From contig PGYV01000003.1 in NCBI GenBank assembly GCA_002839855.1, positions 96,450 to 160,449 on the forward strand: a stretch of 64,000 bases of DNA. The letters run 5' to 3'. The notes under the pieces were generated by a model. The model was not told the origin of the DNA. It worked only from the letters and a program-made list of their open reading frames with translations, and searched no databases. The translations under genes were made by a program, and so were the position numbers. How positions within the stretch are numbered: position 1 is the first letter of the stretch; each line of letters opens with the position of its first letter. Shown one piece after another: positions 56,487-60,903 of this stretch. This DNA comes from Candidatus Goldiibacteriota bacterium HGW-Goldbacteria-1. Its GTDB lineage: Bacteria; Oederibacteriota; PGYV01.

Positions 56487-57671
56487 ATGAAGAAGAAAGC
56501 CGGTAATAAAAGCGGCGCTGACGCTGCTGCGGTTTTAATGCTTGAAGACGGCACTTTTTATAAAGGCAAATCCGCGGGATTCAGCGGGGAAGCGGCCGGG
56601 CTTATAACTTTTGACAATTCCGTGGGCGGCTATCAGGAACTTCTAACCGACCCCGCGGTAAAAGGGCACATAATCTGCATGACATGGCCGGAACAGGGAA
56701 ACACCGGGGTTAATTCCACTGATGCAGAATCGGGCGCTGTGCACGCGGCGGGGTTTGTAGCGGCGCAGATAAGCAGGTACACCAGCAGCTGGCGCGCCGA
56801 AGGGGATTTTAGAAGCTATCTTATAAAAAACAAAGTCACCGCAATTGACAGCCTTGATGTCCGCGCTATAGTCAGGCACATAATAAAAAAAGGCGAAATG
56901 GGCGCTGTGATATCCGCGGTTGATTTTGATAAAACATCGCTTCTTAAAAAAGCGCGCGCCGCCGCAAAGATAAAGATAACTGCCGTATCAACGGATAAAG
57001 AATATAAATGGGACAGCAGAAAAAAAATAAAAGGGCTTGATCTTTTCAGCAAAGAAGCGGTTTATCTTAAAGTATCGGATAATAAACGTAAATTTAAAGT
57101 GGCGGTTTTTGACTTTGGAATAAAGAACAGCACGCTTAAGATGTTCGCGTCAGCCGGATGCGAAGTAATAGTGCTTCCCGCGGATACAAAAGCGGGGCGC
57201 GTTGCGGAATTAAAGGCAGATGGTGTTTTTCTTTCAAGCGGCCCGGGCGATCCGCGTGAAATGAAAGAAATTCAGGCGCGGATAAAACAGCTTCTGGGAA
57301 AGGTTCCGGTATTTGCAACAGGGCTTGGCTGCCAGCTTATGGCATCTGCCGCCGGAATAAAAATTGACAGGATGAAAGCCGGACACAGGGGCGGCAATCA
57401 TTCCATAATAAATCTTGAAACAAAAGGCGTGGAGGTCACGTCCCAGTATCACGGCTTTGCGATAAACGCGCAGTCGCTTAAAAAGTCAAAAAGCGGTTTC
57501 AAACCCCTGCTTATTGATTTAAACGACGGCGATGTGGAAGGCATTGAGGCAAAGAAATTAAAAGCATTCGGCATTCAGTATTATCCGCAGGCAAGGCCGG
57601 GCAAACACGACGCGCCTTTTGTGTTTAACAGGTTCATTGATTACATGAAATCCGCAAAAGGGGTGAAATAA
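56487..57671 (+). CDS. CarA paralogue lacking the catalytic triad
   Basis: A 394-residue CarA homologue aligned end to end with the intact CarA at 51762 (FDNSVGGYQELLTDPAVKG, SSGPGDP, AGHRGGNHSI). At the nucleophile elbow GICFGHQ is replaced by ATGLGCQ, so the Cys position is Gly279; Cys282 stands where His is usual. HHPEAS is replaced by YYPQAR, so His and Glu become Tyr366 and Gln368. All three triad residues are thus lost and glutamine hydrolysis is not expected. The frame is intact with RBS AAAGGAG, so it is a conserved protein, not a decayed gene. It abuts the second carB, hinting at an ammonia-using or structural role. Confidence 0.92.
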   Translation: MKKKAGNKSGADAAAVLMLEDGTFYKGKSAGFSGEAAGLITFDNSVGGYQELLTDPAVKGHIICMTWPEQGNTGVNSTDAESGAVHAAGFVAAQISRYTSSWRAEGDFRSYLIKNKVTAIDSLDVRAIVRHIIKKGEMGAVISAVDFDKTSLLKKARAAAKIKITAVSTDKEYKWDSRKKIKGLDLFSKEAVYLKVSDNKRKFKVAVFDFGIKNSTLKMFASAGCEVIVLPADTKAGRVAELKADGVFLSSGPGDPREMKEIQARIKQLLGKVPVFATGLGCQLMASAAGIKIDRMKAGHRGGNHSIINLETKGVEVTSQYHGFAINAQSLKKSKSGFKPLLIDLNDGDVEGIEAKKLKAFGIQYYPQARPGKHDAPFVFNRFIDYMKSAKGVK

Positions 57672-57672
57672 A

Positions 57673-60600: not shown

Positions 60601-60903
60601 ACACTTGGCACTGCAAACGCGCTGGAACAGTTTGGCATAGAAACGATAATAGTGAAAAAGGTTCATGAAAAGGGCAACAATATCATTGAAATGATAAAAG
60701 CCGGAAAGATAAACCTTATCATCAATACCCCCGCGGGCAAGGGCCCAAGAAGCGACGATTATCAGATAAGGCTGCATGCTATAAGCTTAGGGGTGCCTTA
60801 CACGACCACCATGTCAGGCGCGCAGGCGCTTGTTTATGCCATTGAATCGGTAAGTAAAAAAGAGGTAGAAGTAAAACCGCTGCAGGAGTATTATACAAAA
60901 TAG
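57673..60903 (+). CDS. Second carbamoyl-phosphate synthase large subunit
   Basis: A 1076-residue CarB paralogue starting one base after the stop of the triad-less CarA. Both ATP-grasp halves are present with conserved catalytic segments (RPAFTLGG, EESVLGWKEYELEL, DPMGVHTGDS, IELNPRVSRSSALASKATG; second half GPNRIGQGIEFDY, EANPRASRT). Small changes against the first copy are GGSIAY for GGGIAY and MGGQSGLNL for VGGQTALNL. The regulatory domain keeps TPAGKGPRSDDYQIR. It looks active; whether it serves pyrimidine or arginine synthesis is unclear, but it lies inside the pyr operon. Confidence 0.94.
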   Translation: MPKRTDIKKIMIIGSGPITIGQGCEFDYSGTQACKALSEEGYKTILVNSNPATIMTDPEYADRTYIEPVNEEFVEKIIKKERPDALIPTMGGQSGLNLGSQLSKSGILKKYGVELIGADYNAIEKAEDRLLFKNAIQKIGLDVPESAYVGTMEEAMAAAKIIKFPIIVRPAFTLGGAGGSIAYGMKDFKQKAYYGLKASPISRVLLEESVLGWKEYELELMRDHEDNVIQICNIENFDPMGVHTGDSICSAPAQTFTAAECALIKDAGIDIMREIGVNGGVNIQFAVNPKNGKLKVIELNPRVSRSSALASKATGFPIARVATKLAVGYTLDEVLNTMTKRTPASSEPDVDYVVTKVARFTFEKFKDTPDILGPQMKAIGEVMAMGRTFKESLQKAMRSLETGRFGFGGDGKDPLLSSLSEKDIAEKLKLPNSQRLWYIRYALQKGMGIKKINEMTGIDPWFIAQLDELIVQENKLRKKSIIKSAAFPDELRSAKESGFSDVQLAQMLGTTQDKVRALRKKFDIKPVYKHADTCAGEYDAKSSYLYSTYGGENENPINKIKKKAVILGGGPNRIGQGIEFDYCCVHGVFALKEEGYEVSMVNCNPETVSTDYDTADKLYFEPLTVEDILAISEDEGKKTGFIVQFGGQTPLKLAVPLKEADVRIMGTSPESIDRAEDRKKFDAVLTELNIPRPENGTAFNLAEAKKIVKEMGYPVLVRPSYVLGGRAMEIVYDEESFDKYAKEAFIVSEKYPILIDKFLEDAVEVDVDCICDGKEALIAGIMEHIEEAGIHSGDSACVLPPITIRGDMLEKIKQYTKALALKLNVKGLMNVQYAIRNDIVYILEANPRASRTIPFVSKATGVAWAKLATKVMTGKTLKQLKVKEKLDLPYVSVKESVFPFSKFMGADTVLGPEMKSTGEVMGLDKDFGHAYYKSQVAAGQKIPSKGTVFISVKNKDKRDVIFVAKKLVDLGFKIAATLGTANALEQFGIETIIVKKVHEKGNNIIEMIKAGKINLIINTPAGKGPRSDDYQIRLHAISLGVPYTTTMSGAQALVYAIESVSKKEVEVKPLQEYYTK

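Follow-up and report, generated by a model that had tools for sequence, protein, structure and literature searches.

A second carAB pair in the pyr operon

A stretch of 64,000 nucleotides from contig PGYV01000003.1 of Candidatus Goldiibacteriota bacterium HGW-Goldbacteria-1 (hereafter the window; genome G000) carries a pyrimidine biosynthesis (pyr) operon with two consecutive gene pairs for carbamoyl phosphate synthetase (CPS), of which the second, carA2-carB2, is the subject of this analysis. The carA2 gene (56487..57671) is a full-length open reading frame (ORF) for a CarA of 394 aa without the catalytic triad, and carB2 (57673..60903) is a full-length ORF of 1076 aa for the synthetase subunit, in which the catalytic residues are kept. 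The two ORFs lie in different frames with 1 nt between them, and thus do not form one fused polypeptide. Upstream are carA1 (51762..52928), a glutaminase subunit with intact Cys/His/Glu that served as the active reference copy, and its partner carB1 (52959..56222), which keeps Thr249, Asp258, Tyr261, Arg265, Ser282, Met300 and Asp338 (E. coli numbering, used for CarB throughout). All of these genes, as well as the remaining genes and sites given below for the operon, are on the + strand.

The operon order is pyrR-pyrB-pyrC-carA1-carB1-carA2-carB2-pyrK-pyrD. It starts with a pyrR-like gene (48973..49530) that contains a phosphoribosyltransferase domain (PF00156) and was named from position and fold, followed by pyrB (49534..50466; NCBIfam NF002032 and TIGR00670 above cut-off), encoding the aspartate carbamoyltransferase that consumes carbamoyl phosphate, and pyrC (50450..51733; TIGR00857 above cut-off), encoding dihydroorotase. 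The constant 3' neighbour of carB2 is a gene for a pyrK-like electron-transfer subunit (60928..61695), which was assigned by PF10418 and synteny, as the NCBIfam models for the dihydroorotate dehydrogenase electron transfer subunit match it below their cut-offs. Dihydroorotate dehydrogenase itself is encoded by pyrD (61913..62824; PF01180, and NF005574 above cut-off). The spacer between carB1 and carA2 (56223..56486, 264 nt) contains a 42-nt imperfect tandem repeat of 2.2 copies (56381-56474). An RNA control element in this spacer was considered and rejected for want of an Rfam match at the gathering score, and the scan of 47000-64000 returned zero families at that score. Promoter-like and terminator-like matches were near chance (4 vs a mean of 3.3 and 4 vs 2.9, respectively).

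Triad loss in CarA2 and altered positions in CarB2

When aligned with E. coli CarA, Gly279 (57321..57323), Tyr366 and Gln368 (codons 366-368, 57582..57590) of CarA2 correspond to the catalytic Cys269, His353 and Glu355, whereas CarA1 aligned in the same way has all three catalytic residues. Both the small-subunit domain and the class-I GATase fold are present in CarA2. Both ATP-grasp halves of CarB2 are present with their catalytic residues: 25 of 27 listed active-site residues are identical to those of E. coli, and the remaining two (210 Val and 754 Lys) match CarB1 of the same order. These results bear out the preliminary description of this DNA, which had claimed the three replacements, an uninterrupted CarA2, a CarB partner with ATP-grasp motifs and an active glutamine-type pair just upstream. 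The alignment and tree that it suggested for clade-wide triad loss have also been made, and the loss is common to 11 distinct triad-dead CarA sequences that form one clade (support 96/84 in the CarA tree).

Among 144 CarA sequences, 128 have the CHE triad, 15 are dead like CarA2 and one is of another dead type. The triads of the 15 read GYQ (8), GHL (3), DYQ (3, in metagenome proteins) and EYL (1); four of these sequences are duplicates of genome copies, which leaves the 11 distinct ones, and Cys and Glu are absent from all 11 while the triad makeup varies. At the site of E. coli CarA Pro360, Pro is found in 129/129 active sequences and Lys or Ala in 11/11 dead ones (Lys373 in CarA2, 57603..57605), in a comparison made without the four duplicates (P0001, P0002, P0006 and P0010) and the dead CarA of G018, a relative in the phylum. 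The NCBIfam model TIGR01368 ('glutamine-hydrolyzing') passes CarA2 despite the missing triad (349.6 vs a cut-off of 307.35 bits), and a second triad-dead CarA tested is also above this cut-off (324.3 bits); the automatic name that CarA2 receives from this model is unsafe. No recognised description of a triad-dead bacterial CarA was found in the open-access literature, an absence that is weak evidence, as subscription papers were mostly outside this scope.

Six CarB2 sequences were compared with 28 others (11 CarB1, 16 of the phylum and that of E. coli), and a column was called CarB2-specific if its conservation among the 28 was 90% or higher and five or more of the six differed. There are 24 such columns: 22/219 in residues 1-403, 2/31 in 404-553, 0/189 in 554-936 and 0/33 in 937-1073 (Fisher P 2.6e-6 across domains), where we take residues 1-403 to be the bicarbonate/ammonia (carboxyphosphate) domain and 554-936 the carbamate-kinase domain. 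The reverse control, CarB1 changed relative to the rest, gave only one column. The changes are clustered at 249-348 (58417..58713), a stretch with 14 of the 24 CarB2-specific substitutions, including Thr249Cys, Leu256Phe/Tyr, Asp258Ala/Val, Tyr261Cys/Ser/Gly, Arg265Lys (codon 58465-58467), loss of 279, Ser282Val, Met300Leu, Asp338Thr and Phe348Ser/Thr. Six held-out metagenome CarB2 sequences are altered at nearly all the same positions, with Lys265 in 6/6. CarA Pro360 and CarB Arg265, which presumably line the tunnel wall, are invariant in active pairs and both replaced in CarA2-CarB2; they are reportedly among the residues mutated in a 2004 study entitled 'Perforation of the tunnel wall'. The gate Cys232/Ala251/Ala314, whose positions were taken from CPS1 residues named in the human CPS1 structure paper (PMC4655335), is conserved in CarB2.

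Occurrence in the order and in other lineages

CarB2 together with a triad-dead CarA was found in 6 of the 14 genomes of the order (G000, G002, G003, G005, G009 and G012), which span five families (f1, f2, f3, f4 and f6), and carB2 is directly followed by pyrK in all six. The dead pair follows an active pair in G000, G002 and G005, and the pyr operons of G003 and G009 contain no other carAB; the G012 copy is interrupted by a contig end. In G003, G004 and G008 (L036, L038 and L040), the active pair lies outside the operon at a locus that also holds pyrG and a glutamate-synthase-like gene, and gltB- and gltD-like genes are also near the locus of G004, the only one whose domains were checked. Neither an active pair nor pyrG was found in the 84% complete G009. 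An ornithine carbamoyltransferase model matches above its cut-off in all 14 genomes, and carbamoyl phosphate is therefore needed for arginine too.

CarB2 forms a clade with support 100/100 that is nested within the CarBs of the order, with the f2/f3 copies as its neighbours (95/96). The CarA tree conflicts with this, as the dead clade, with the midpoint root as drawn, does not fall within the active clade of the order; the placement in the CarB tree is the one we trust, because CarB is longer and slower. Between the window and G002, the ratio of nonsynonymous to synonymous substitution rates (dN/dS) of the nine pyr genes ranges from 0.021 to 0.091, with carB2 lowest (0.021), carA2 highest (0.091), carA1 at 0.054 and carB1 at 0.033. 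A pseudogene was rejected on these ratios, the open frames and the clade; intact-triad orthologues with frame decay, which the preliminary description had named as signs of one, were looked for and not found.

A second, different triad-dead CarA is present in G018. Among the 120 matches listed for its family, Glu355 is absent from 120 and Cys269 from 119, and Pro360 is replaced in at least 118 (by Phe in 105); Candidatus Omnitrophica and Ratteibacteria are among the names in the source records, where labels such as 'glutamine-hydrolyzing' occur. This Omnitrophota-type CarA mostly has Ser or Ala at Cys269, a deleted Glu355 and Pro360Phe, and occurs with an adjoining Val265 CarB (L051:39-1190 and L184-L193; G018, G294, G157, G381, G251, G308, G110, G084, G379, G354 and G218), the G018 pair being split over two contigs. 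In a survey of 384 genomes that considered best-scoring matches only, such a CarA with its adjacent CarB was fetched from ten genomes, with G354 and G218 more distant. The CarBs have Val249, Val265, Ala282 (Val282 in G018) and Val300. In G251 and G381, which belong to one genus (96 and 92% complete drafts), no CarA or CarB was found apart from those of the dead pair; G381 also has, at the end of a contig, a CarA fragment of 41 residues that nearly duplicates the dead carA product (39/41 residues) and whose last 65 bases recur in that gene. Carbamoyltransferase domain matches, with aspartate and ornithine types pooled, number two in G381 and one full plus two partial in G251. A strong but not final case can thus be made that carbamoyl phosphate synthesis in this genus must depend on the dead pair, if the draft assemblies are complete here. 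Some dead pairs of this type are followed by a gene for a GATase_7-domain protein (L187:5167-6642 and L184:12666-14072 by Pfam, L186:4571-6046 by resemblance), and that of L191 (G379) by one for glutamate dehydrogenase.

A third lineage consists of second CarBs with no CarA adjoining (G020, G025, G026, G037, G118, G159 and G163; L149, L150, L151, L152, L252, L258 and L259), with an intact CarA elsewhere in six of the seven genomes, and has Cys249, Gln261, Gln265, Thr282 and Ile300. In L152, a carbonic anhydrase gene adjoins the CarA-less CarB. Within residues 1-403, changes coincide with the CarB2-specific positions in four of these orphan CarBs (15/20 vs 29/207, P 1.7e-8) as well as in the G018 CarB (14/20 vs 24/207, P 2.6e-8), and the CarB2, Omnitrophota-type and CarA-less CarBs are separate clades, each with support 100/100. 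One G159 CarB, which is placed together with the orphan clade at the root as drawn (100/100), adjoins an active CarA and has Arg265.

Across 51 CarBs classified by CarA partner, Arg265 is present in 26/26 beside an active CarA (window CarB1 and E. coli included), 0/17 beside a dead one and 0/8 with no adjacent CarA, the last class being seven orphans plus the CarB of G018, where the dead CarA lies on a separate contig. The loci of this table were listed by hand, CarBs without a readable residue 265 and duplicate fetches were dropped, and three Arg265 CarBs with no adjoining CarA on the stretch are not in it (G118:C61, G084:C43 with an active CarA ~2.5 kb off, and G013:C13). The pair of G163:C68 was counted as dead. 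Its divergent GED CarA and Lys265 CarB (L266/L262), the latter differing at catalytic 285, 299 and 301 in the alignment, may represent another enzyme. In the 16 phylum outgroup CarBs and E. coli, Arg265 is found in 17/17, some of them away from their CarA; Arg265 therefore tracks the presence of an active partner, not its adjacency. In the background set, 137/138 CarBs have Arg265, and the single one that lacks it, P0173, clusters with the G018 type.

Predicted nitrogen donor and competing explanations

CarA2-CarB2 is probably a two-subunit, ammonia-dependent CPS (CPS I-like) for pyrimidine synthesis, in which CarA2 is likely a structural subunit. The pair would convert bicarbonate, two ATP and free ammonia into carbamoyl phosphate, with CarA2 holding CarB2 in working shape. 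Ammonia would enter from solvent via a side tunnel or the changed interface between the subunits, reach the conserved CarB gate and attack carboxyphosphate, after which carbamate would pass on through the unchanged second half of CarB2. It is possible that CarA2-CarB2 serves ammonia-rich times or niches and spares glutamine, with CarA1-CarB1 covering low ammonia. We also lean, with less confidence, towards a broader proposal that an ammonia-only CPS evolved three or more times in bacteria (CarA2-CarB2, the Omnitrophota-type dead pair and the CarA-less CarB), that the same tunnel-wall and ammonia-entry residues were rebuilt each time (CarB 249/258/265/282/300, plus CarA 360 where CarA remains), that such an enzyme is the sole CPS in at least one genus, and that CarB Arg265 predicts the nitrogen donor.

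The closest known likeness is human CPS1, which has a glutaminase-like region without the catalytic Cys (Ser294 in human) and uses ammonia as nitrogen donor according to its structure paper (PMC4655335), as predicted here for CarA2-CarB2. The same paper describes CPS1 as taking ammonia from the environment with the old tunnel blocked, and E. coli CPS whose ammonia tunnel is blocked or perforated as inactive with glutamine and normally active with external ammonia (PMC4655335); these engineered variants are artificial, whereas the change in CarA2-CarB2 is natural and accompanied by triad loss. Ammonia can also stand in for glutamine with carAB, as noted in another paper (PMC3017870). When aligned to the window CarB2, human CPS1 is changed at 249, 258, 261, 279, 282, 300, 338 and 339. 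The differences are considerable: CPS1 is one fused chain, mitochondrial, N-acetylglutamate-dependent and part of the urea cycle, whereas the bacterial pair is encoded by two genes in a pyr operon, and the structure paper names only the Cys as replaced in CPS1 whereas CarA2 lacks all three residues (PMC4655335). Gly293 of that paper corresponds to a CarA site at which the states are variable and hence uninformative. CarB2 nests in the order's own CarBs in trees built without animal sequences, which speaks against common descent with animal CPS I. CarA2-CarB2 is best read as a bacterial CPS I by convergence, with predicted ammonia use, and as a real, conserved variant misnamed by automatic models. 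Compared with the glutamine-dependent CarAB of E. coli type (CPS II; NCBIfam TIGR01368/TIGR01369), which has Cys/His/Glu, CarA2 lacks the triad, and Pro360, Arg265 and further carboxyphosphate-domain positions are replaced in the pair. Other microbial enzymes offer a different comparison: the small CPS of Methanobrevibacter smithii uses ammonia, and hyperthermophilic archaea have a carbamate-kinase-like CPS. Unlike CarA2-CarB2, both have neither a CarA-like subunit nor a full-length two-half CarB. The M. smithii enzyme is an example of microbial carbamoyl phosphate synthesis without the CarA glutaminase in a 2018 review (PMC6022934).

Several observations weigh against the proposed ammonia-dependent function. 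Human CPS1 has Arg265, unlike CarB2. An unselected comparison of CPS1 with the CarB2-specific positions over residues 3-403 was not significant (10/20 vs 67/205, P 0.10), and a claim of statistical convergence with human CPS1 was dropped on this result; CPS1 is changed at 8 of the 12 positions common to the three bacterial lineages (P 0.019), a post hoc value with no glutamine-dependent eukaryotic CPS as control. The 25 CarBs that lack Arg265 fall into three main lineages, with G163:C68 as an odd addition, and thus represent about three independent events rather than 25. The pyr operons of G001, G006, G007 and G010 hold an active pair only and those of G008 and G011 no carAB at all; as these operons are complete, CarA2-CarB2 is dispensable. 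In addition, CarA2 evolves faster than CarA1, most in the glutaminase half (identity of the glutaminase vs the other half is 94 vs 92% in CarA1 and 86 vs 89% in CarA2), a pattern that would be expected if CarA2 is retained as a structural subunit with the glutaminase constraint gone.

Among the options raised in the preliminary description, the ammonia-using isoenzyme in parallel with CPS I has gained from the clade, purifying selection, the intact synthetase, the tunnel-region changes and the recurrence, with one lineage seemingly lacking any other CPS. The regulatory complex and the use of another amine have lost ground, given that CarB2 is the most constrained of the nine pyr genes and that its carbamate-kinase half has no lineage-specific change at conserved columns. 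CPS forms oligomers, and the dead pair is encoded right after the active one in G000, G002 and G005, so that CarA2-CarB2 could be a regulatory pseudoenzyme that tunes CarA1-CarB1 in a mixed oligomer and makes no carbamoyl phosphate of its own. This is unlikely, since apart from the strong constraint on CarB2 its catalytic and gate residues are kept, the pyr operons of G003 and G009 carry the dead pair as their only carAB, no CPS other than a dead pair of another lineage was found in G251 and G381, and CarBs without a CarA neighbour are altered at the same positions. Supply of ammonia to CarB2 in trans by another amidotransferase, which would leave the pair indirectly glutamine-dependent, is less probable still: the GATase_7-domain protein encoded after carB in G251 and G294, with a similar ORF in G381, would suit such a role, but in the window and the five orthologues the gene after carB2 is pyrK, and no protein of this kind was noted in the ORFs inspected next to the G110, G084 and G379 pairs, where the Pfam scan covered only the G379 glutamate dehydrogenase.

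The deletion at 279, Ser282Val and Met300Leu adjoin carboxyphosphate-site residues in sequence, as might be expected if CarB2 took a different small amine to give an N-substituted carbamate or carbamoyl phosphate. We regard this as very improbable, because 0/189 conserved columns are changed in the carbamate-kinase half, the ammonia-using human CPS1 is also changed at 249, 258, 261, 279, 282 and 300, and carB2 precedes pyrK and pyrD in the pyr operon. There is only a slim chance that the pair is a decaying duplicate heading for loss, which its absence from several relatives and the faster evolution of CarA2 might suggest, in view of open frames in the six genome copies (G012 being cut by the contig end), dN/dS well below 1, one clade across five families and constant synteny. 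It is hardly credible that CarA1, although co-encoded in the tandem genomes, supplies CarB2 from its active glutaminase with CarA2 as a competitor or spare, as CarB2 lacks the Arg265 kept in 26/26 CarBs beside an active CarA and CarA2 is altered in step at Pro360.

In section 3.1 of the 2018 review, bacteria are assigned CPS II, a glutamine user, with usually one per organism (PMC6022934), and the CPS1 structure paper states that all CPS types except CPS1 use glutamine (PMC4655335). If the preferred reading of CarA2-CarB2 as an ammonia-dependent enzyme is true, a bacterial two-subunit, glutaminase-dead CPS would constitute an independent CPS I. The repeated matched changes offer a natural experiment on the ammonia tunnel of CPS, which is a model of enzyme channelling, as well as a candidate sequence marker for the nitrogen donor. 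In addition, since a 'glutamine-hydrolyzing' model accepts triad-less proteins (two tested), genome reconstructions can misrepresent the nitrogen metabolism of Goldbacteria and Omnitrophota.

Two minor observations were also made. A split CarB, an ORF of ~550-580 aa covering the first half only, lies beside an intact carA in L194, L195, L196, L197 and L199 (G110, G157, G294, G354 and G218). At the end of the window (63684-64000), ~22 copies of a 14-nt repeat give rise to long repetitive ORFs on the - strand.

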